In this document: piece by piece, positions 4,902-15,556 of the stretch
Layout of the letters: every line of letters begins with the position of its first letter
How positions within the stretch are numbered: the stretch's first letter is position 1
Origin: Tepidimicrobium xylanilyticum
GTDB taxonomy: Bacteria; Bacillota; Clostridia; Tissierellales; Tepidimicrobiaceae
Reading direction: 5' to 3'
Assembly (NCBI RefSeq): GCF_900106765.1
Contig: NZ_FNNG01000003.1
Span: 1-64,000 of the forward strand
Length of the DNA: 64,000 nucleotides
Program-made: the position numbers and the translations under genes
The notes under the pieces: generated by a model
Seen by the model: only the letters and a program-made list of their open reading frames with translations
What the model was told of the DNA's origin: nothing
The model's database searches: none

Positions 4902-5726
4902 TCATTCTCCACATTCATCGTGGTGCTCATGTTCATGGCAAACAGAACCAGTAGATTTAAGAGAACCCTGCAGGTATGCTTCTACTACTGCTTTGGCATC
5001 ACCTCTTGCCCCAACAATAACCTCAATGTTTCTTTCATTAAAAATGTCAACTGCACCTCCTCCCATACCACCACTGATGATGACATTTACTCCACGATCG
5101 GCAAGAAAATTAGGCAAGAATCCAGGTTTATGCCCGGGGTTAGCGATGGTTTCACTTTTAACAATTTTGTTGTTTTCGGTGTAAAAAATTATAAACCCTT
5201 CGCAATGTCCAAAGTGCTCAGTCACCATTCCGTTTTCACTTGCTACAGCAATTTTAATCATAGCTGGTCTCCTCCATTCTTTATTTAGAATATATTCATC
5301 AAGTATCCTTGCAGCTTGCTCAACAAGTTCTGCGCAAGGCCGCTTTTTATAATAATTATCATTTCTGGTCTCGGGTATAGGTTTATCATGCTTAATTGAA
5401 ATACCTAACAGTTCCCTGCATATGATTGATCCGTTTTCATTTTCAAATTGTTTTGCCAAATCTTGAACTAGCTCATAATGTTCTGCTTTCGCATTTTTGC
5501 TGGATGGATCTGTGTAACCATATTTCATGCCGACCACCATAAACATTCCTGTCACAGCACCACATACTTCCCGCAACCTACCCATACCTCCTCCGAAAGA
5601 AGATGCAATTTTTAATGCTGTTTCCATGTCCAGCCCCGTTTCATCACAAAAAGCAGCAAAAACAGATTGAGAGCAATTGTAGCCTTTTCTAAACAATTCT
5701 CTTGCCAAATCTGAATGTGCACTCAT
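4902..5726 (-). CDS. C_GCAxxG_C_C family / NifX-like domain fusion
   Basis: A 274-residue protein with two domains. Residues 1-150 are a C_GCAxxG_C_C (redox-active) domain: GYNCSQSVFAAF, then CGAVTGMFMVVG, then the late cysteines in ICRELLG and RPCAEL. Residues 155-274 are a dinitrogenase iron-molybdenum cofactor (NifX/NafY/ORP-like) domain, starting MIKIAVASENG and containing the conserved HFGHCEGF and GGMGGGAVDIF, with a His-rich metal-binding tail (CHEHEHHDECGE). A complete SD and an in-frame ATG lie at the junction (5261), so the second domain may also be made alone. The start overlaps the end of the Mrp gene by 4 bp. Confidence 0.85.
   Translation of the reverse strand: MSAHSDLARELFRKGYNCSQSVFAAFCDETGLDMETALKIASSFGGGMGRLREVCGAVTGMFMVVGMKYGYTDPSSKNAKAEHYELVQDLAKQFENENGSIICRELLGISIKHDKPIPETRNDNYYKKRPCAELVEQAARILDEYILNKEWRRPAMIKIAVASENGMVTEHFGHCEGFIIFYTENNKIVKSETIANPGHKPGFLPNFLADRGVNVIISGGMGGGAVDIFNERNIEVIVGARGDAKAVVEAYLQGSLKSTGSVCHEHEHHDECGE
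5259..5275 (-). promoter_or_regulatory. Internal SD and ATG at the domain junction
   Basis: On the minus strand GGAGG (5271-5275) stands 9 nt before an in-frame ATG (5259-5261) that is the exact first codon of the NifX-like domain. Translation from here gives a 119-residue protein of normal NifX-family length. Confidence 0.55.
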
Positions 5727-6571
5727 TTATTATCTTCCTCAATGTTTTTCTCCAATACTTTTGCTACAGGTTCAAGCCAATCGCCATCAAAAAGTTCTAT
5801 CATACCCTTATCACAGGCGGCAGAAATTTTGGGGTTGACCGGAAGCTTAGCAAGCACTTTTAAATTATGCTTTTCGGCAATTTCGTCAATATGGCTGTCG
5901 CCGAAAATTTTGTGTTCCTTACCGCAATCCGGACATTTAAAATAGGACATATTTTCTACTAAACCAACGATAGGAATATTCATCATTTCAGCCATCCTGA
6001 CTGCTTTTGATACAATCATGGATACAAGCTCCTGAGGCGAAGTTACAACAATGATCCCATCAACAGCAATGGATTGAAATACAGTAAGGGGAACATCGCC
6101 GGTGCCCGGTGGCATATCGATGAACATAAAATCCACATCGCTCCAGATAACATCTGACCAGAACTGCTTTACCATATTTCCGATCAGGGGTCCTCTCCAC
6201 ACAACTGGATCGGTATCATTCTCTAAAAGCAAATTAACAGACATGATATCAATACCTGTCTTACTTTTAACGGGGAATAAGCCAAATTCACTTCCTGTGG
6301 CTTTTTCCTTGATACCAAATGCCTTAGGAATAGAAGGCCCGGTTACATCAGCGTCCAGAACAGCGGTATGATAACCCATTCTATTCATGGTAACAGCTAG
6401 CATGGAAGTTACCAGTGACTTTCCAACCCCTCCTTTACCACTGACAACACCAATAACCTTTTTAATGCTGCTCATTTCATGTGGTTTCACGGAGAAATCA
6501 TTTTTCTTCTCTTTTCTTTCTGCGCAGTCCTCCGAGCAACTGCTGCAGCTTTGGTTGCAATTTTCGCTCAT
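5723..6571 (-). CDS. Mrp/NBP35-family Fe-S carrier ATPase
   Basis: A 282-residue P-loop ATPase of the Mrp/ApbC/NBP35 group, which binds and transfers 4Fe-4S or related metal clusters. Visible are the deviant Walker A GVVSGKGGVGKSLV, the switch region DADVTGPSIPKAFG, DMPPGTGD, and the cluster-binding CPDCG. An extra Cys-rich N-terminus (NCNQSCSSCSEDC) suggests an additional metal site, as in NBP35. The start at 6571 is chosen over the longer frame because AGGAAGGAG precedes it. It overlaps the next gene by ATGA. Confidence 0.92.
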   Translation of the reverse strand: MSENCNQSCSSCSEDCAERKEKKNDFSVKPHEMSSIKKVIGVVSGKGGVGKSLVTSMLAVTMNRMGYHTAVLDADVTGPSIPKAFGIKEKATGSEFGLFPVKSKTGIDIMSVNLLLENDTDPVVWRGPLIGNMVKQFWSDVIWSDVDFMFIDMPPGTGDVPLTVFQSIAVDGIIVVTSPQELVSMIVSKAVRMAEMMNIPIVGLVENMSYFKCPDCGKEHKIFGDSHIDEIAEKHNLKVLAKLPVNPKISAACDKGMIELFDGDWLEPVAKVLEKNIEEDNK

Positions 6572-6626
6572 AATATTAGCTCCTTCCTGTATATTTTTCA
6601 TGCATGGTTGTTATGCTGTAATAACT

Positions 6627-7358
6627 TTAGTGTTCGGTAAACATAATAAGCAGTGCGAAAACAATTCCCAATATAAATGCTAGGGTAGAGTGCTTTTTCT
6701 CATAATCCCTTGCTTCAGGCAATAAATGCGATGCCGAAACGTATATTAAAACACCAGCAACAAATCCAAGCATATGTCCTAAAACATTGTTACTAAGATG
6801 TTGAACAATTGGATATGCTATAAAGGCACCGATAGGAGTTGTTAATGCTGCTGCAAGAAAAGCATAAATCCCAGCTTTCCTTGTGCTATATCCACCTTTA
6901 AGTAACATTGAAAAAGTTATAACGCCTTCGGCGAACTCATGAACAACCAACCCAACTCCAGTAAGAATTCCAACTACTGTGCTGATACTAAAAGTAACTG
7001 TGTATACAACGCCATCTATAAGTGAATGAATTAAGATACCTTCAATTGCAGTTATGCCAAAGGCCAGTTCTTTTTGCTTTGTTTTGTATTTGATGATCTC
7101 ATTGCTGAAATACATAAATAAAAATCCTGCGAGCGCAGTAAATCCTGCGTAGGAGGTTTTTTGTATAGCTTGAGGTAAAGTCATTATCAGCGGGGAAGAG
7201 ATAAGTATTCCCGCAGCAAAACACATACAATAGTCTTTAATTTTTTCTGCCCATTCGCGATTTTTATAAAGAGTCCAGATTCCCAAACTGTTTACTATCA
7301 TTGCTCCCATTGCAAAAGCAGAAATAAAAATAAATGTATTAATATCTTTCACAGGCAT
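6627..7358 (-). CDS. ZIP-family divalent metal transporter
   Basis: A 243-residue inner-membrane carrier with about eight hydrophobic segments. The TM4 and TM5 metal-site motifs are recognisable: HSLIDGVVY and VVHEFAEGV. SHLLPEA occurs near the C-terminus. ZIP proteins import Zn, Fe, Mn or Co. Its place inside a metal-sulfur cofactor operon suggests it feeds metal to that pathway, though the substrate cannot be told from sequence. Confidence 0.87.
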   Translation of the reverse strand: MPVKDINTFIFISAFAMGAMIVNSLGIWTLYKNREWAEKIKDYCMCFAAGILISSPLIMTLPQAIQKTSYAGFTALAGFLFMYFSNEIIKYKTKQKELAFGITAIEGILIHSLIDGVVYTVTFSISTVVGILTGVGLVVHEFAEGVITFSMLLKGGYSTRKAGIYAFLAAALTTPIGAFIAYPIVQHLSNNVLGHMLGFVAGVLIYVSASHLLPEARDYEKKHSTLAFILGIVFALLIMFTEH

Positions 7359-7389
7359 TCATCTCCCTTGATTTGCACTATCAAATAAT

Positions 7390-8211
7390 TCATATGTGTA
7401 TTTCACTGCCTGCTGACAGATAATCGATGCTATCACCCATAATAGTTTTCAGCCTTTTATAAGGCTCCAGACCAGTGCAATGACATGTGTAAAACTTTGC
7501 TTTTGTATCCACCAGGTATTTACCAATTCTATCTATCATTTCATGGGCCTCGTTTCCGCCAGAACGGCTGGAAAGATGAAATCCACCTATCACATAGTTA
7601 GGCATACGTCTTTTTAAGTCATGGAAGTATTCAAGAATATTTACAATACCATTATGGGCGCAGCCTGTTACCAAAAGCGTCTTTCCTGCCCCCTCTATAA
7701 TGAGGTTTTGTTCATGCGCAAAAGTATCCTGTACTATTTTGCCGTCTTGTTTCATAAGCAAACTGTCATTTGACTTTGGTAGAGGTTCCTTCCTGGTAAT
7801 ATTTGAGAACACTTGAACCCCCTTGCTGACAAAGAAACGGTCTGATGTAAATACAATTCGCCTGTTTTGCTTCAATTCTTCATCCAAACCAATATACTCC
7901 GGTTCATCATTCGAACGCAAAGCATAGTATTTTTCAAATGCCAGTCGGTGTAGGAATATCTCGGCTTTTGTGTTTTCACGCAAAAAAGCTCTTAGCCCGC
8001 CACCATGATCATAATGTCCATGCGAAATAATCAGATAATCAACCTCACAGATATCTACATTCAGTTTCTTTGCATTTTCAAGAAATAATTCACTAGCACC
8101 AACATCAAAAAGAATTTTGCGACTATTTGCTTCTATATAAAGGCTAAGTCCGTGTTCGCTGCCGAAGTTTTTGGATAGCGCTGTATTCTCAACTAATGTT
8201 TTGATAATCAT
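7390..8211 (-). CDS. MBL-fold metallo-hydrolase
   Basis: A 273-residue metallo-beta-lactamase-fold protein. The HxHxDH motif is SHGHYDHGGG at about residue 64, with further ligands at GCAHNGIVN and the C-terminal GGFHLS. It belongs to the branch annotated as 7,8-dihydropterin-6-methyl-4-(beta-D-ribofuranosyl)aminobenzene 5'-phosphate synthase-like, commonly found beside ferredoxin-MinD ATPases in anaerobes. The true substrate is unknown. Its start overlaps the upstream ATPase stop (ATGA), showing tight coupling. Confidence 0.85.
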   Translation of the reverse strand: MIIKTLVENTALSKNFGSEHGLSLYIEANSRKILFDVGASELFLENAKKLNVDICEVDYLIISHGHYDHGGGLRAFLRENTKAEIFLHRLAFEKYYALRSNDEPEYIGLDEELKQNRRIVFTSDRFFVSKGVQVFSNITRKEPLPKSNDSLLMKQDGKIVQDTFAHEQNLIIEGAGKTLLVTGCAHNGIVNILEYFHDLKRRMPNYVIGGFHLSSRSGGNEAHEMIDRIGKYLVDTKAKFYTCHCTGLEPYKRLKTIMGDSIDYLSAGSEIHI

Positions 8212-9092
8212 GACCTCAGCCCACCACCTTCTTCAAACAGCAGCTCCATTGTCTTGCTAAAAACTACTTTCACTGCTGCACCTGAGGCACAGACTATATC
8301 AACAATTGTCTGCCCATTATTAATTGCTTTTACCGCGTCCGAATCAAAGGGTATTCTACCCATAAGGCTAATTCCCTGACCTTTACAGAAGTTTTCTATC
8401 TTTTCTGTGTTTTGCATATTTGTGTCAAACTTATTGATACATACCGCCGTCTTTACGCCAAATTTCGTCGCTGTATTTATAATCCGCTCCATGTCACTAA
8501 TTCCGGATATGGATGGCTCGGCCACAATTAACACCATATCAACACCGCTCAAAGACGCTATAACCGGGCAGCCTATACCGGGAGATCCGTCAATAATGGC
8601 AAACTCCACATCAGCGGCTGCTGACTTCATTTGCTTCTTTACCTCGGTAACCAACATTCCGGAGGTTCCGCTGCCCATTTTTAGCTGCGCTGTAGAAAAT
8701 ACTTTTTCTCCTTCTGTATATAACAGCAGTTCACCAGCTACAGCAGGTTTTAAAGTCACAGCTTCAACAGGGCAAACAAGCTCGCAAACCCCGCAGCCTT
8801 CACAGGCAAAAGGATCTACCTTGTATTTTCCATCTGCTGAAATAGCGTCAAAACGGCAGTTTTGCCTGCATTGTCCGCACTCTATGCACAACTCTGTATC
8901 TATCTCGGCTTTCGGCAAGCCATAATAGTCTCTTTTCTTTGGCAAGGAGTTTTGCTTTGTTATAAGATGCAGGTTAGGTGCATCAACATCACAATCAGCA
9001 TAAGCGCGAGCCTTAGATAGCTTGATAAACGCGCTTGCTATGGTTGTCTTTCCGGTACCACCCTTACCACTAAGAATCAGAAGTTGTTTCAT
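8208..9092 (-). CDS. MinD-family ATPase with inserted 2x[4Fe-4S] ferredoxin
   Basis: A 294-residue ParA/MinD P-loop ATPase. The deviant Walker A is LSGKGGTGKTT at residues 7-17. A ferredoxin insertion at about 65-115 carries two clusters: CIECGQCRQNC and CEGCGVCELVCP. Walker B (IIDGSPGIGCPV) follows. This architecture matches the paired ATPases of the Desulfovibrio orange-protein (ORP) operon, which handle a metal-sulfur cofactor and affect division. The next gene upstream is a paralogue. A good SD (GGAGGTG) precedes the ATG. Confidence 0.92.
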   Translation of the reverse strand: MKQLLILSGKGGTGKTTIASAFIKLSKARAYADCDVDAPNLHLITKQNSLPKKRDYYGLPKAEIDTELCIECGQCRQNCRFDAISADGKYKVDPFACEGCGVCELVCPVEAVTLKPAVAGELLLYTEGEKVFSTAQLKMGSGTSGMLVTEVKKQMKSAAADVEFAIIDGSPGIGCPVIASLSGVDMVLIVAEPSISGISDMERIINTATKFGVKTAVCINKFDTNMQNTEKIENFCKGQGISLMGRIPFDSDAVKAINNGQTIVDIVCASGAAVKVVFSKTMELLFEEGGGLRS

Positions 9093-9930
9093 GATGCACC
9101 TCCTTTTTCACGTCCTCCAGCAAAGAAGAAAAGATTGTACGATATTTTTCACTTTTCCTTACAGCAATTTCTGCATTTGAATTCAATGATCCAAGCTCAT
9201 TATCAAAAGGTATTCGGCCTAAAATCCGAATGCCTTTTTCTATGCAAAATTTTTCCGACGGATTTTCACCGTCAAGACACTTGTTTAAAACCACTCCGAA
9301 CGGCTTATTAAATAACTTGACCAGTTCATATACCATGTTAAGGTTATGAACTCCGAACAATGTAGGCTCAGCTACTAATATACAGTAGTCTGCATCCTTA
9401 ATGCTTTCCATGACTATACAGGCACTTCCAGGAGGGCAGTCGATAAATATCGTCTTGCTTCTTTCATGTTCATTCTCATCAAGCAGCTTTTTTATTATGG
9501 GTATCCCTGAAGGTTCACCAGGATTCAATATCCCGGTATATACTGTCACCTGCTCTGAAGTACCTTTTTGCACTCTGCCGATAACCTTTTCTTTCTCTGT
9601 CAATGCCTTTTCAGGGCAAAGCAAGATACATCCACCGCAAGAGTGGCAAATATCTTCAAATACTATCAGTTTTTCTTTTATATAGGCAAGAGCATTAAAC
9701 TTGCAAAATTCAACACACCTTCGGCATCCGCTGCATAGATTTCCATCCACCTTTGGAATTTTAACTGAAATTTCTTCTTCAATGATATCCTTGGGCTTAA
9801 AGAATAGATGTCCATTTGGTTCCTCAACATCACAGTCTATATAGGTTGATGTTTTGGCTACCGCAGCTAAATTAACCGACACTAGCGTTTTCCCCGTTCC
9901 CCCCTTGCCGCTTAGCACAGCTATTTTCAT
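9070..9930 (-). CDS. MinD-family ATPase with inserted 2x[4Fe-4S] ferredoxin (paralogue)
   Basis: A 286-residue paralogue of the downstream ATPase. Walker A is LSGKGGTGKTL at the very N-terminus. The inserted clusters are CSGCRRCVEFC and CHSCGGCILLCP, and the later FIDCPPGSAC is the Walker B region. Two such proteins probably form a heterodimer. I place the start at 9930 (MKIAVLSGKGG), preceded by GGAGGC, instead of the longer frame that runs into the NifX gene. It overlaps the following ATPase by 23 nt. Confidence 0.9.
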   Translation of the reverse strand: MKIAVLSGKGGTGKTLVSVNLAAVAKTSTYIDCDVEEPNGHLFFKPKDIIEEEISVKIPKVDGNLCSGCRRCVEFCKFNALAYIKEKLIVFEDICHSCGGCILLCPEKALTEKEKVIGRVQKGTSEQVTVYTGILNPGEPSGIPIIKKLLDENEHERSKTIFIDCPPGSACIVMESIKDADYCILVAEPTLFGVHNLNMVYELVKLFNKPFGVVLNKCLDGENPSEKFCIEKGIRILGRIPFDNELGSLNSNAEIAVRKSEKYRTIFSSLLEDVKKEVHHETTSDS

Positions 9931-9931
9931 A

Positions 9932-10300
9932 TTATTTGCCTCCATGTCCATGAAAACCAGCATGTATTTCATTCAGCAAAGGAAGCTTTCCAGCAATGAA
10001 GACATCGATATTATCCTTAGCTGAAGCAGTTGTCGTTTTATATATTTCGATTTCCGCAGATTTAAGTACGTCAGCAGCATTTTCACCTAATCGGGGAGTA
10101 AGCAAAATATTCACTTTATTATCTGCTATCATTTGTGCTGCCTTAATTCCTGCTCCGCCTGTACTTGCTGCGGCACTATTGTCAAGGAACACACTTTTCT
10201 GGGTATCGGTATCATAAATCAGAAAGTAAGGAGTGCGTCCAAAGGATACACATACATTCGACTCCAAACTTTTTTCATTTACCGGAATTGCTATTTTCAT
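9932..10300 (-). CDS. NifX/ORP-type iron-molybdenum cofactor-binding protein
   Basis: A 122-residue single-domain member of the dinitrogenase iron-molybdenum cofactor family. It starts MKIAIPVNEKSLES, with VSFGRTPYFLIYD and TGGAGIKAAQMI, and ends in a His/Gly tail (HAGFHGHGGK) like metal-binding tails in the family. Members bind FeMo-co precursors or, for ORP, a Mo-Cu sulfide cluster. A start at 10300 is supported by GGAGGATTCTT upstream. It ends 1 nt before the ATPase gene. Confidence 0.87.
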   Translation of the reverse strand: MKIAIPVNEKSLESNVCVSFGRTPYFLIYDTDTQKSVFLDNSAAASTGGAGIKAAQMIADNKVNILLTPRLGENAADVLKSAEIEIYKTTTASAKDNIDVFIAGKLPLLNEIHAGFHGHGGK

Positions 10301-10673
10301 AAGAATCCTCCGTTCTATTAATATAATTATTGATCGCATTTCGTAATGCGCTAACGCCTAAATTAGAGCAATGAACCTTGTTCTCAGGAAGTCCATCTAA
10401 GGCATGTATGACATCTTCTTCTGAAATTTCCAATGCTTCATCCAGGGTTTTACCCTTAGCTAATACCGTCGTCATACTGGATGTTGCAATTGCCGCAGCA
10501 CAACCAAACACAAGAAAGCTTATTTCACTTATACGATTGTCTTTTACTTTAATATAAATCGTAAGATAATCTCCGCATGTAGGATCACCGAAACTCCCCT
10601 CTGCATCGGCATCCGGCATACTATAAGCATTTTGAGGACACATAAAATGTTCTATCACTTTGTCAGAATACAT
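10275..10673 (-). CDS. NifU/IscU-like Fe-S cluster scaffold
   Basis: A 132-residue NifU N-terminal-type scaffold with the three cluster cysteines in place: GDPTCGDY (with the Asp that labilises the cluster), FGCAAAIATSS, and KVHCSNLG. It starts YSDKVIEHFMCPQN, as in the family. It presumably assembles 2Fe-2S/4Fe-4S units for the ATPases or the NifX-like carrier. It overlaps the NifX gene by 26 nt, with the SD of that gene inside it. Confidence 0.9.
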   Translation of the reverse strand: MYSDKVIEHFMCPQNAYSMPDADAEGSFGDPTCGDYLTIYIKVKDNRISEISFLVFGCAAAIATSSMTTVLAKGKTLDEALEISEEDVIHALDGLPENKVHCSNLGVSALRNAINNYINRTEDSYENSNSGK

Positions 10674-10675
10674 TA

Positions 10676-11050
10676 TCAGTCACCTCTATCACTACCTGCA
10701 AAGCGCCAACCATGCCGGTGCCTGCGACAACCTCGTCCGCACCCATTTCCGAATCCTTCACATAGCCTGTATTCGCCACCTTCTATCAATAGTACCTTAC
10801 CATTAACCAGAGACTCGGCAATCTTTTTTCTGGCTTCAGCGTAAATGCCTTGAACAGTAGTGCGTGCAACATCCATCTGCTTGGCGCATTCCTCTTGCGT
10901 AAAGCCTTCCAAATCAATAAGCCTTATGGCTTCATACTCATCAACTGTCATTCTGACAATATTCTCATCATCCACCTTTAAGTCAAGGGGACCAAACTTA
11001 CTGTTTTCAGGCAAACAGCATACTTTTCTCCATTTCATTGGTCTCGGCAT
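10676..11050 (-). CDS. DUF134 HTH protein, probable operon regulator
   Basis: A 124-residue DUF134 protein. The N-terminus [15 protein letters not shown] is the family hallmark. Residues 45-100 form a sigma-70-region-4-like HTH ([47 protein letters not shown]). The C-terminus is rich in Cys, His and Arg and could bind metal. DUF134 genes commonly neighbour NifX-like genes in anaerobes. It is the best local candidate for binding the palindromes upstream of the operon, but that is inference. The start at 11050 has a GAGGTGAC site. Confidence 0.85.
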
Positions 11051-11144
11051 ATTTTTAGTCACCTCGATTCTGATAGAAACAATCATTTTTATATTCCATT
11101 ATATTTATAGTCATGCACCCCATCCCTTTAGATAAAACGCGAAC

Positions 11145-11166
11145 AAGGCAGGCTATCGCCTGCCTT
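11145..11166 (-). terminator. Hairpin between DUF5320 genes and the DUF134 operon
   Basis: AAGGCAGGC (11145-11153) and GCCTGCCTT (11158-11166) form a perfect 9-bp stem with a 4-nt loop, extendable by GCGAA/TTCGC with a bulge. On the minus strand only GTTTTATC follows, so it may be an attenuator that lets part of the transcription through. Confidence 0.5.
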
Positions 11167-11182
11167 TCGCATTACGACAGGA

Positions 11183-11500
11183 CTAATCTTCTAACTCATC
11201 GAGACGCTTTTTTACATCATCAAGCTGATTTTCAAGAAATTTAGCCTGCCTTTTCAAAAATTCTTTTTCATCAGCATCCGATGCAAAGTACGCCCCATTT
11301 GCATTTTGAGTACCAAAGCGTGCCCACCTTGGCAGACCGGTCGCATAAAACATTCGCCTAAAGCCTCGTCCCCGTCCGAATCCAAATCCGTAACCGATTG
11401 GATTTGCATAACCCGGAACGGCAAAACCTGCGCAAAATCCTGCACCTCGCCCTGTCATAGGACCCATTCCCATAGGCCCGGTTCCGTCTCCTCTTGGCAT
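11183..11500 (-). CDS. DUF5320 protein
   Basis: A 105-residue Gly/Arg/Met-rich protein of the DUF5320 family, recognised by the start MPRGDGTGPMGMGPMTGRGAG and FCAG. Residues 30-60 are low-complexity Gly/Phe/Arg and the last 30 form a short coiled coil (KEFLKRQAKFLENQLDDVKKRLDELED). The function is unknown. The family recurs beside Mrp/NifX genes in anaerobes, and a metal or cofactor role is only suggested by that company. Confidence 0.8.
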   Translation of the reverse strand: MPRGDGTGPMGMGPMTGRGAGFCAGFAVPGYANPIGYGFGFGRGRGFRRMFYATGLPRWARFGTQNANGAYFASDADEKEFLKRQAKFLENQLDDVKKRLDELED

Positions 11501-11517
11501 AATGTCACCCCCTTTCC

Positions 11518-11754
11518 TTATAATCTCTTACTTTTAATTTTGCTACGATTAGATAAGTGATAAGCTAGATAAAAACACCAGGGGATCATTCCAGCAAGCC
11601 AGAATGCACGCCTGTAACCTCGTCGTCCAAACCAAAATTCTCGTCTGTAACTTGCGTTCAAATAACCGGGCACTTTGGAACCTGCACAAAAACCTAACCT
11701 CCGTCCAGTTAATGGTCCCATTCCCAAAGGACCAGTTCTGTCACCTCTGGGCAT
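11518..11754 (-). CDS. DUF5320 protein, short paralogue
   Basis: A 78-residue sibling of the following gene, with the same head (MPRGDRTGPLGMGPLTGRR, FCAG) but no C-terminal coiled coil; it ends in a basic tail. It is the promoter-proximal gene of the operon. The start at 11754 is preferred, with GAGGAGGAC upstream. Confidence 0.75.
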   Translation of the reverse strand: MPRGDRTGPLGMGPLTGRRLGFCAGSKVPGYLNASYRREFWFGRRGYRRAFWLAGMIPWCFYLAYHLSNRSKIKSKRL

Positions 11755-11818
11755 AATAGTCCTCCTCATTTTTACAATCCATTAAATGAATTGATTATCC
11801 TTTCAACTGTTACTCAGC

Positions 11819-11875
11819 GTAAATGACATATGTCATTTACATCTTATATTATACCCCTATTCTGACATATGTCAA
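11819..11875 (-). promoter_or_regulatory. Sigma-A promoter flanked by two identical palindromes
   Basis: Minus-strand TTGACA (11870-11875) and TATAAT (11848-11853) are both consensus with a 16-nt spacer. The palindrome TGACATATGTCA occurs twice: at 11863-11874, overlapping the -35, and at 11824-11835, near the start point, where the dyad extends to a perfect 22 bp (11819-11840). The centres are 39 bp apart. This is a textbook repressor-controlled promoter for the leftward metal operon. Confidence 0.8.
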
Positions 11876-11884
11876 TAACTATTT

Positions 11885-11923
11885 TAAAAAAATACGCCAA
11901 TCAAGAATTTTTCTCGATTGGCG
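11885..11923 (-). terminator. Terminator after the recombinase genes
   Basis: CGCCAATC (11895-11902) and GATTGGCG (11916-11923) form an 8-bp stem. On the minus strand it is followed by TATTTTTTT. It ends the recombinase transcript and separates the prophage from the host metal operon; the left attachment site should be close to here. Confidence 0.8.
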
Positions 11924-11940
11924 GCAATCATATTGAAATC

Positions 11941-13509
11941 CTATAGTTTCACTTCTATTTCCAGACCCGACTTAAACTCTACCATTAACCTGTCATCATA
12001 TACAATTGCTTTTTCAACTAGTTTTCTAACCAGTTTATCATCAAACTCCGAAATATCACCCGTTTGCGTTTTAAGGAAGTCCGTCATTTCAGCAATCCGA
12101 TCCCTCTTATCTTGGCGAAGAGCGTTTCTTGAAAGTGTTTCTTGCCTTAAGTCCCGTAAGCGGTAAATCTCGTTGACAATATTATCGTATGCTTCCTTTG
12201 AATTTGCCTTTTGGATCAACTCGGTTTGGAGTTCTTCCAGCCTTTTATCAATGTCTGCTGTACTTTCATCCAAATCCGCGCTTAATACGGTTTCAATATT
12301 CTTTTTCAGTATAGCCAGAAAAGAGTTTTTTCCGCTGACCGCTACATTGATTGCTTCTACAATTTTCTCTTTAAGCGTATCTTCAAGTATAGTGGAAGCG
12401 GTACAAAATAAACCGGTGTTTTCCAATCTGCTGACGCATCTCCATACGATTGATTTCTTTCCTCGGTTATTCCAATGAACCCTTCGAAATATTTCATGAC
12501 AGTTGCCGCAGAAAACCATCTGTGATAAAGGATGCTTGTTGCTATAGTTTCTTTTCTTTCCATTCTTACTTATATGCACACATCTTCTTTTGACAAGCTG
12601 TTCCTGAACCTGCATAAAAATTTCACGCGGGATTATAGGCTCATGGCTGTTTTCTACATAGTATTGCGGAACAATACCATTATTGGGTACCCTTTTCTTC
12701 GATAAAAAATCTACGGTATAGGTTTTCTGCAACAGCGCATCACCGATATATTTTTCATTCCTCAAAATCTTATTGATAGTACTAGTATGCCATCTGGGAT
12801 TGCCTGCACCCGTCAGAATTCCGTCAGCCTCCAAACCCCTAGCTATCTGTAGCATACTGGAACCTTCAAGATATTCTCTGTAAATGCGTTTGACGATCTC
12901 AGCTTCTTCAGGTACGATAACTAAATTGCCATCCTTATCCTTTGTATAGCCAAGAAACCGGTTGTGATTGATATGGATTTTTCCTTGCTGATATCGGTAC
13001 TGAATACCCAGTTTTACATTCTGGCTTAACGATTGGCTTTCTTGCTGTGCCAAAGATGCCATAATGGTCAACAGGATTTCTCCTTTGGAATCCAATGTGT
13101 TTATATTTTCCTTTTCAAAGTAAACCGGAATATTTTTTTCTTTAAGCTGCCTTATGTACTTTAGGCAGTCCAGCGTATTTCTTGCAAACCGGCTGATAGA
13201 TTTCGTAATTATCATATCGATTTTGCCCTGCATGCATTCTTCTATCATCCGGTTAAATTCTTCACGCTTTTTCGTGTTGGTTCCGGTAATACCTTCATCT
13301 GCAAATATACCAGCTAACTCCCATTCTGGATTGCTTTTAATGTAATTTGTATAATGCTCGATTTGCGCTTCATAACTGGTTGCCTGCTCCTCGCTGTCCG
13401 TAGAAACACGACAGTAAGCTGCTACCCGAAGCTTAGGTAATTCCTCTGCATTTGCACTATTCCCAATTCGCTTACGGGCAGGAATTACCGTAACATTCCT
13501 GGTTATCAT
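11941..13509 (-). CDS. Large serine recombinase (integrase) A
   Basis: A 522-residue large serine recombinase. The resolvase domain starts [14 protein letters not shown] (catalytic Ser in the YCRVSTD motif), with [16 protein letters not shown] as the active-site helix. A recombinase domain follows (about 170-280), then a zinc ribbon ([10 protein letters not shown]...WRC...C) and a long C-terminal coiled coil. Such enzymes integrate and excise phages at att sites. This is the last gene before the left end. It overlaps the small recombinase gene by 38 nt, with SD GAGGTG. Confidence 0.93.
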
Positions 13510-13930
13510 CTAAAATCACCTCGCTCTTAATAGAACTATAAGCATACTCTGCCTGCTGAAATGGATCATCGTATAGATTATCCGGCATTGAAGCATGAAA
13601 CTTAAAATTTAAGATTTTCTTTTCATTTCCTTTATGTTCATAAATCCTGCCAAGCGCCTCAGCTCGCCTGTGTCTTTCCAGTTGTGCTTTTCCGAATGTG
13701 TCCTTGCTGATAATTGGCGGATAGAATTTGTCTTCAACATACCGTTTATCTGAAAGCATTTTTGCAACAGATGTGTGGTAACGCTTAATACCTGCTTTTT
13801 GTGCCGCTTTGCTTAAAGAAAGCCCGGAAAGATAAGCCTCAAATAGTTTCTCAATCTTAACTGCTTCCTCTTCATTAACGACAGCCCTGCCGTTTTGAAT
13901 GTTATATCCAAAAGGTATATGGCTCATCAT
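13472..13930 (-). CDS. Catalytic-domain-less recombinase-like protein
   Basis: A 152-residue protein resembling only the central Recombinase domain: [43 protein letters not shown], then [28 protein letters not shown]. It has no serine resolvase domain and no zinc ribbon. It sits between two full recombinases with an ATGA overlap upstream, so it is probably an accessory DNA-binding subunit, not a broken gene. The ATG at 13930 is preferred over the longer frame. Confidence 0.75.
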
Positions 13931-15495
13931 TTCACCAACCTTTCCCTTAAGTTCAACCCGCATTTCATTTTGAAACCTATTTCCTCCTGTGAAAACACAA
14001 TGATTTCTTCAATAAAGTTCTCAAATATATCGCTATCAAATGCATCAATCTGCTTTTCAGCCTTCGATGTAAATTTAAGAAGCTTCTCAACCTCAACAAG
14101 ATCAGTCATGCTCCCATCGATTGCGCGTTTTATGGCTTCTTTTTGTTCTTTTAATATGGCTGCTTCTTTGAGCAGCTCATTTTTCTGTGTATTAAAAAGA
14201 GCGGGTTCCAGGTATCCTTTGGCCATAAGTCCCATAATCACCTGAACTCGCTCTGTATTTTCTTTGATTTTTGTTTCCATCTCCTGAATCTTTGTTATGT
14301 TATCTGAGTAATTTGTCTTCTTTAAGCTTTGCAACAATGGCCTTAGAATGAACTTATGACCGAAAATAAGCTTATTAATCATAACAACGAAGGCCTGATG
14401 GATCGCATCCTCTCTGACAAACTTCATGGAACAGCTTGATGCGTCCTTTATATGCTTTGTGCAGCACCATGCAATATATTTACGGTCACCGCTGCCATGA
14501 ATTCGACGCTTTAAACTGCTGCCACATTCTGCGCATTTGATTTTCCCAGAGAAAGGGTAGCGTTTTTGATACTTGCTGCTTCCCTTAATTACACCTTTTT
14601 CTTTTCCTCTTTGCTTTAATATCTCTTGGGCGGCTTCAAATTCCTCATGGGATATAATGGCTTCATGATGATCTTTTATCATGTATTGATCTTTTTCCCC
14701 ACGATTATAATGCCGCTTAAAATTCTCATCTGTATAGGTTTTTTGCAGAAGGACATCCCCAGTATATTTTTCATTGCTTAAAATGCTGCGGATAGTTGTC
14801 GCTGTCCAATGCGAACCTCTTTTTGTTGGGATTTTATCCGAATTTAGCCCATCTGCAATTTTCTGTGTGCCTTTACCGTCCAAAGCCTCGGAAAAAATCC
14901 GCTTTACGATTTCAGCCTGTTCTTTATTGATAAATAGCTTTCCATCCACATAATCGTAACCATAGGGAGGATACGAAATTTTGTATGTTCCGTTTTGGAA
15001 CCTACGTCTGATAGACCACTTACTATTTTCTGCAATGGATAATGACTCGTTTTCTGCAAGACTGCTCAAAATTGTCAGCACCAATTCGCCTTCCATGCGC
15101 TGTGTGTTTATATTCTCTTTCTCGAAATAGATGAAAACACCGAGATCGGTAAGTTTTCTCACCATTTCAATGCAGTCGGTTGTGTTTCTGGCAAATCTGC
15201 TGACTGACTTGGTTATAATAAAGTCAATTTTCTTGTTTTCACAATCTGCAAGCAGTCTCAAAAGTCCAGTTCGGTTTTCCTTTTTTGTGCCTGATATGCC
15301 TTCATCATAGTAGATCCCTGCAAACTCCCAATCAGGATTTGCTCTTATATAGGATTCATAATGGTCTTTTTGTGCTTCCAGGCTTGCCATTTGTTCATCA
15401 CTGTCTGTTGAAACCCTGCAATAAGCCGCTACCCTCACCTTTGGCTTGAAAGCTTGGAGAGCATTGTTTCCATCAATCCTTGTTACCTTTCTCAC
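13927..15495 (-). CDS. Large serine recombinase (integrase) B
   Basis: A 522-residue recombinase with the same layout as recombinase [30 protein letters not shown], recombinase domain, zinc ribbon (CAECGSSLKRR...WCC...C) and coiled-coil C-terminus. The GTG at 15495 lies 8 nt after AAAGGAGG; the GTG at 15504 is inside that SD and is less likely. Two intact but diverged recombinases in one operon suggest a heteromeric integrase or division of labour. Confidence 0.92.
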   Translation of the reverse strand: MRKVTRIDGNNALQAFKPKVRVAAYCRVSTDSDEQMASLEAQKDHYESYIRANPDWEFAGIYYDEGISGTKKENRTGLLRLLADCENKKIDFIITKSVSRFARNTTDCIEMVRKLTDLGVFIYFEKENINTQRMEGELVLTILSSLAENESLSIAENSKWSIRRRFQNGTYKISYPPYGYDYVDGKLFINKEQAEIVKRIFSEALDGKGTQKIADGLNSDKIPTKRGSHWTATTIRSILSNEKYTGDVLLQKTYTDENFKRHYNRGEKDQYMIKDHHEAIISHEEFEAAQEILKQRGKEKGVIKGSSKYQKRYPFSGKIKCAECGSSLKRRIHGSGDRKYIAWCCTKHIKDASSCSMKFVREDAIHQAFVVMINKLIFGHKFILRPLLQSLKKTNYSDNITKIQEMETKIKENTERVQVIMGLMAKGYLEPALFNTQKNELLKEAAILKEQKEAIKRAIDGSMTDLVEVEKLLKFTSKAEKQIDAFDSDIFENFIEEIIVFSQEEIGFKMKCGLNLRERLVK

Positions 15496-15556
15496 TGTTT
15501 TCACCTCCTTTGGGTATGTGACATGTTACCTCTGTGTGCCGCTAATAGCAAGCCAA

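Follow-up and report, generated by a model that had tools for sequence, protein, structure and literature searches.

A promoter with paired palindromes and the genes that it faces

The window, a stretch of 64,000 nucleotides of the Tepidimicrobium xylanilyticum genome (contig NZ_FNNG01000003.1, positions 1 to 64,000), carries on its minus strand a run of 11 genes (4902-11769) faced by a promoter. The gene order and the close spacing suggest that the run is transcribed as one unit. The promoter elements and the genes are listed in table 1.

Table 1. Promoter elements and genes of the minus-strand run, with positions in the window
Feature	Position	Strand	Basis or remark
-35 hexamer TTGACA	11870..11875	-	Read directly
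-10 hexamer TATAAT	11848..11853	-	Read directly; 16-bp spacer to -35
Putative operator 1, perfect TGACATATGTCA	11863..11874	-	Read directly; cassette recurs in other genomes
Putative operator 2, perfect 22-bp dyad GTAAATGACATATGTCATTTAC	11819..11840	-	Core is TGACATATGTCA at 11824-11835
DUF5320 protein, first gene, short, Gly/Arg-rich	11518..11769	-	PF17253
Second DUF5320 protein	11183..11500	-	PF17253
DUF134 protein, proposed repressor	10676..11086	-	PF02001 and Sigma70_r4_2; model; covariation; cysteines
NifU-type Fe-S scaffold	10275..10673	-	PF01592
Nitro_FeMo-Co (NifX-like) protein	9932..10339	-	PF02579
P-loop ATPase with ferredoxin insert	9070..9972	-	Domain search
Second P-loop ATPase with ferredoxin insert	8208..9092	-	Domain search
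Metallo-beta-lactamase-fold (MBL) protein	7390..8211	-	PF00753
ZIP family metal transporter	6627..7358	-	PF02535
Mrp/ApbC-type Fe-S carrier ATPase (MrpORP-like)	5723..6601	-	Match below the model's cut-off
C-GCAxxG-C-C and FeMo-Co-domain protein, last gene of the run	4902..5726	-	TIGR01909

On the minus strand the promoter region (11819-11875) reads TTATTGACATATGTCA-GAATAGGGG-TATAAT-ATAAGATGTAAA-TGACATATGTCA-TTTAC. The textbook optimum of the spacer between the -35 and -10 hexamers is 17 bp. The first palindrome covers the last five bases of the -35 hexamer, TGACA being common to both, and the second begins 12 bases past the -10 hexamer. Transcription would start near 11841, which would place the second palindrome just downstream of the start. 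The two copies of TGACATATGTCA are 39 bp apart, start to start. Direct reading thus confirmed a consensus promoter with two identical palindromes (TTGACA-16-TATAAT, 39 bp, 22-bp dyad), as described in an earlier sequence-only reading of the window.

A first-order Markov model of the window predicts 0.004 exact copies of TGACATATGTCA per 64 kb and 1.7e-8 pairs spaced by no more than 60 bp. Among the 14 perfect 12-bp palindromes of the window, TGACATATGTCA alone repeats. When up to two mismatches were allowed, 6 matches were found against 2.8 expected, and 5 of 100 shuffles reached 6, which leaves the exact pair as the only special feature. The rest of the 3.0-Mb host genome holds one more exact copy (contig C9, 99667-99678; about 0.2 expected), which may be due to chance or may be a further target. 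Judged by eye, this copy (L005, 4968) has a histidine-kinase-like gene on one side and an ABC transporter operon on the other.

The operon copy of the window probably lies on a mobile element, reaching from about 1540 to beyond 19900, judging from sequence comparison. DNA 92-100% identical was found in G008 (another genus of the family), in Herbinix hemicellulosilytica (Lachnospiraceae), and in Clostridium sp. N3C, and homology to these three genomes begins near 1522-1541 of the window. A genome of the same genus (G001) has only short matches to this DNA. The element also carries LGT, LysR, chromate-transporter, and serine recombinase genes. Three consecutive recombinase-type frames (522, 163, and 525 aa) occupy 11941-15504 of the minus strand; the two long frames contain Resolvase and Recombinase domains, and the 163-aa frame contains Recombinase only. 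A hairpin, GCCAATC..GATTGGC, followed by a T run was seen by eye at 11895-11923 of the minus strand; it probably terminates transcription of the recombinase gene that immediately precedes the promoter.

Distribution of the word and of DUF134 genes

The family PF02001 occurred in 93 of the 120 related genomes and in 198 of a sample of 299 genomes from the phylum of the window (Bacillota). We collected 80 loci with 85 DUF134 genes; with the window included, the set comprised 81 loci and 86 genes. Upstream of DUF134, the paired word (at most one mismatch per site, sites 36-39 bp apart) was present in 11 of the 81 loci: the window, L055, L075, L076, L088, L093, L104, L113, L115, L118, and L119, the last with two site pairs. 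All of them belonged to the subtype of the window (A), and they represented six family codes. A lone site with a single mismatch lay near DUF134 in six further loci (L058, L070, L096, L100, L101, and L106). With the looser word TGRCATATGYCA, L058, L080, and L100 gained two sites 39 bp apart, and 14 of the 20 subtype A genes had a site pair. As for the other six genes, three have one site nearby (L070, L096, and L106), two have none (L094 and L105), and the locus of the last (L064) is at a contig end.

The other DUF134 subfamilies carry variants of the word that keep the CATATG core. Type B and type D loci carry the related word TTGACATATGCCC, and either TTGGCATATGCCAA or TTGGCATATGCTAA accompanies type C genes. 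The type D site often lies 3' of DUF134, ahead of the next gene. The host genome has a second DUF134 gene (contig C4, L041 6374), the recognition helix of which reads VSRQTFQNIL with Asn80, and here the type C word TTGGCATATGCTAA was observed about 870 bp upstream.

Searching from the word to the gene, we obtained at least 150 matches of TATTGRCATATGYC in at least 114 clusters from the 120 related genomes, against 9 for the reversed pattern in all 120. Among the 114 clusters listed, 67 were within 5 kb of a DUF134 gene and 47 were not, and 40 of these 47 were fetched and inspected. Fifteen sites adjoined homologues of window-operon genes (DUF5320, FeMo-Co, MinD-like, and Mrp; a weak MinD match in L174 was left out), 3 were promoters of SorC regulators, and 12 were inside reading frames and look like chance matches. 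The other 10 (L175, L180, L183, L189, L194, L195, L197, L200, L202, and L208) were outside these groups; that in L175 precedes a radical SAM gene, and those in L197 and L208 precede a gene for a glutamate-synthase-like protein, a possible member of the regulon. Such a gene was observed beside the word in L185, L186, L197, and L208 (identified by PF01645 in L197 and by eye in the others). Among the matches of TATTGRCATATGYC listed, four came from three genomes without DUF134 (G061 twice, G109, and G112), all inside reading frames. The paired cassette occurred in 22 of the 120 related genomes and in 16 of the 299 phylum genomes, and DUF134 was present in all 22 and in all 16.

A scan for the cassette that was blind to genes, with one genome per species, gave at least 120 stretches. 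The 120 listed were mostly from Bacillota, with others from Synergistaceae, Anaerolineaceae, and Coriobacteriaceae, and with one Sphaerochaetaceae and one Chitinophagaceae MAG; two stretches (L261 and L300) are from one MAG. A DUF134 gene was detected by HMM within 99 of the 120 listed stretches (66 of the first 80), and a gene missed by the HMM in L261 raised this number to 100. In 18 of the 21 listed stretches without an HMM-detected gene, DUF134 was located elsewhere in the genome. The other three (L243, L283, and L301) are from MAGs without a detected DUF134, and no window-operon gene was seen next to their cassettes. In 35 of the 99 listed loci the centre of the pair overlapped the DUF134 start or lay within 100 bp upstream of it; in 56 it was 100-1000 bp upstream and in 2 it was farther away in that direction, and 6 loci had it on the opposite side. 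Around the 120 listed cassettes, the other families found included any FeMo-Co-domain protein (70), MinD/Mrp-like proteins (65), and DUF5320 (61), as counted by single-sequence comparison in all frames, which misses remote members. At 14 listed loci, DUF134 was the sole window-operon family found. The sequence-only reading had named the search upstream of homologous DUF134 operons as a test of its proposal, and the counts of 11 of 81 loci, 14 of 20 subtype A genes with the looser word, and 99 of 120 listed stretches bear it out.

A promoter was scored in 118 of the 120 listed cassettes, with TTGACA in 114 and TATAAT in 67; these counts are flattered, as TGACA was fixed by the search pattern, only the first T of the -35 and the -10 were free, and the -10 was chosen as the best of four spacings. 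The spacer was 16 bp in 86 cassettes and 17 bp in 29. In the cassettes measured, the downstream site begins 8-13 bp after the end of the -10. The spacing between the sites was 36 bp in 32 listed cassettes, 37 bp in 8, 38 bp in 34, and 39 bp in 46, within the 36-39 bp that the pattern admitted, and corresponds to about 3.4-3.7 helical turns.

Fold of the DUF134 protein and covariation of residue 80 with the outer base

The DUF134 protein of the window has 136 aa, and its recognition helix spans residues 73-82, with Gly80 as the key residue. It scored 77.8 bits against the PF02001 gathering score of 27, and 63 bits against the cut-off of 115 of the NCBIfam model NF003257 (PRK04217 equivalog). 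Sigma models matched in the helix-turn-helix (HTH) only, and no model matched a sigma region 2. There was no Pfam match to a C-terminal sugar-binding domain of the SorC/DeoR type and no match to an Rrf2 domain, which sets the protein apart from the Rrf2/IscR-type class. In an AlphaFold2 model of a 131-residue construct, residues 41-100 were confident (block means 81-95) and the HTH had a pLDDT of about 90, while the cysteine tail was of low confidence. The nearest solved folds of the HTH found by Foldseek were sigma region 4 and the DNA-binding domain of the SorC-family DeoR; many matches had an rmsd of about 0.7 over 40-48 residues, yet they were weak, with an E of 0.04 at best. The VIA-align Z of the model was middling (at most 7.0), and the best PDB-sequence profile match was DeoR (E 0.004).

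DeoR of Bacillus subtilis (PDB 7bhy and 8r7y) places a sigma-4-like HTH on its operator and is both the best profile match and a close fold match, but SorC-type proteins also contain a large domain for sugar binding, as did four proteins in this analysis, whereas DUF134 has 136 aa and a cysteine tail. Sigma region 4 (PDB 2h27, 1ku7, and 5fgm) has the same HTH fold, and the half-site of the DUF134 word equals the TGACA of the -35; unlike sigma factors, DUF134 has no detected region 2, and its target is palindromic and the protein presumably dimeric. The SorC-type regulators, with a sugar-binding domain and a Sigma70_r4 HTH, were observed at L006 (host contig C14), L181, L182, and L191. Their own promoters carry tandem sites that resemble TTGACANATGTCAA, are spaced 19 bp apart (4301-4331 in L006), and are similar to the DUF134 word.

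Each of the 29 type C genes retained Cys67, Cys109, Cys116, and Cys120, and so did nearly all genes of the other types; in type D, the largest group, they were kept in 69 of 79, 65 of 68, 62 of 63, and 68 of 70, respectively. Cys67 is located within the HTH. Because the cysteines are conserved and the operon encodes Fe-S carriers, a switch that senses a metal or an Fe-S cluster is suggested, as a fair guess.

The relationship between the recognition helix and the word was investigated with 156 DUF134 genes (86 from the order and 70 from the phylum). The promoter-side half TTGRCATATG served as the anchor, the other half was left free, and the nearest site within 1.5 kb of DUF134 was taken. Only 79 of the 156 genes had such a site, and when the core was scrambled at constant composition, 3 of 156 had one. 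Of the 45 genes with Arg80, 41 had C as the outer base (G on the opposite strand), against 1 of the 34 genes with another residue (Fisher p about 1e-16, with related genes treated as independent); five genes break the rule. The rule was also seen inside lineages, with 8 of 9 against 1 of 15 in the AR.TVQ lineage and 7 of 9 against 0 of 19 in the SRQTFQ lineage. It had been noted from the order set before the phylum set was fetched, and its final form was set after later data; in the phylum set, the outer C accompanied Arg80 in 18 of 19 genes and other residues in 0 of 3 (p 0.003). Residue 80 was the best predictor among the protein columns tested, with a leave-one-out accuracy of 0.91 against 0.77 for the next. 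On the tree, residue 80 changes only three times, and independent pairs were concordant in 2.8 of 3 cases on average and discordant in 0; because there are only three changes, this test falls short of significance. As a weak lead, residue 79 (Phe/His) goes with TT at the inner bases.

The cassette loci were excluded from the covariation test because they had been selected on the word itself. At the listed loci found by the paired TGAC..YCR word, 2 of the 99 nearest DUF134s had Arg80, whereas 108 of the 156 genes of the family sample had it. This low share and the covariation are not expected from a regulator other than DUF134. Residue 80 presumably corresponds to Q589 of sigma70, with a register that could be one base off. 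One study places Q589 at base -35T and R584 at -30T' (PMC8561392), and another lists R584, E585, and Q589 as readers of the -35 (PMC8407463).

Putative autorepression by DUF134 and its alternatives

Considering the linkage of DUF134 to the word and the covariation of residue 80 with the outer base, which support the earlier choice of DUF134 as the prime candidate regulator, the palindrome pair very probably represents docking sites of DUF134. We hold with considerable confidence, on the evidence of sequences, that the protein acts as a sigma-region-4-like dimer, recognizes -35-like half-sites in inverted orientation, and shuts down its own promoter by binding at both ends. The dimer would bind the palindrome T-G-R-C-A-T/A-T-G-Y-C-A via its HTH, each of the two inverted half-sites resembling a -35 element. 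One dimer would occupy the -35 and another the beginning of the transcribed sequence; once bound, they would keep RNA polymerase off, and the operon that encodes DUF134 would be repressed. The signal for derepression would probably come from a metal or Fe-S site formed by Cys67, Cys109, Cys116, and Cys120, according to its state. Repression is the natural reading because the sites overlap the -35 and the start region. In agreement with an autoregulatory repressor, the sites overlap the core promoter and the regulator gene lies within the regulated operon, provided that the run is a single transcript. The sequence-only reading had proposed cooperative repression with looping; repression remains the favoured reading, but the cassettes, with spacings of 36, 37, 38, or 39 bp within the range searched, give looping no support, and it appears unneeded, as two adjacent dimers clamping the promoter would suffice.

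Some activators have sites that overlap the -35, as the first site does here, and DUF134 might bind and recruit RNA polymerase there like a sigma-contacting activator. We consider this unlikely: the promoter is near consensus and needs little help, and the second, equal site begins 8-13 bp past the -10, where a bound protein would block the polymerase.

It is also quite improbable that a regulator encoded elsewhere (e.g., of the SorC family, MarR, or Rrf2) binds the word and that DUF134 is only co-regulated. A look-alike word does serve another sigma-4-like HTH, at the SorC-type regulator promoters on host contig C14 and in three fetched loci, but its sites are spaced 19 bp apart rather than 36-39 bp. 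Moreover, a third party would not explain why the word varies with the DUF134 recognition helix, and only a merged DUF134/FeMo-Co/ATPase cluster and DUF5320 exceeded 14 of the 120 listed loci in a clustering of non-overlapping frames, which undercounts. Cross-talk between SorC regulators and DUF134 is possible on the basis of the similar sites.

The sequence-only reading knew of no regulator for this word, a statement that has to be qualified, since the repressor gp33 of mycobacteriophage BPs binds the near-identical CGACATATGTCG (PMC4557955). This operator half-site is a 12-bp palindrome, its 10-bp core common with TGACATATGTCA, and two half-sites form a full operator at an early promoter (PMC4557955). 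The second BPs half-site is a variable version (PMC4557955), whereas both sites of the window and of the cassettes can be perfect; gp33 is a repressor from a phage of mycobacteria, likened to the DUF134 system by its operator. The SorC tandem sites and the BPs operator are look-alike systems.

A CRP/FNR-type operator is highly improbable: the full 12-mer was found in the open-licence PMC literature solely inside TGTGACATATGTCACA, the CRP site of a CRP-DNA structure, but the flanks in the window are without TGTGA, one TGTGA-type flank occurred in 3 of the 120 listed cassettes and the full TGTGA-N6-TCACA in 0 of 120, and on these flanks the reading was rejected. That the neighbouring serine recombinases use the palindromes for recombination is scarcely credible, although a recombinase gene ends 67 bp from the first site, as the same junction is conserved in three other genomes with shared DNA running past both sides, on which grounds an att-site role was rejected, and the cassette recurs as the promoter of DUF134 operons.

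The gene content of the operon, with FeMo-Co-domain proteins and P-loop carriers, recalls the Mrp/NBP35-orange protein (MrpORP) Fe-S system of Desulfovibrio; MrpORP, a related fusion of ATPase and FeMo-Co domain, binds and transfers Fe-S clusters, and 'DUF134' has 0 occurrences in the paper that describes it (PMC6345978).

Autorepression by an HTH protein is ordinary in kind. We found no operator, regulon, ligand, or function for DUF134, UPF0251, or COG1342 in the open-licence PMC literature, and within this scope the putative operator, the predicted specificity residue, the putative regulon, and the candidate sensing motif are new for DUF134; the earlier claim of a first (predicted) binding site for the family agrees with this. 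More tentatively, the whole family might consist of repressors that sense a metal or an Fe-S cluster and mimic sigma region 4, with one word as both -35 and operator half-site and with a simple residue-80 code (Arg reads G, and Gly, Asn, or Ser reads T at the outer base) that separates the paralogues of one cell; this is a possibility to which we give somewhat less than even weight. If such a code is true, the element-borne Gly80 copy and the Asn80 copy on contig C4 would be such a pair of paralogues. If one word serves as -35 and operator, DUF134 would clearly exemplify the reuse of a sigma-like fold on sigma's own target. With an operator defined, a specificity residue predicted, and target genes listed, the family is testable at once, and the regulation of Fe-S carriage in anaerobes becomes accessible.
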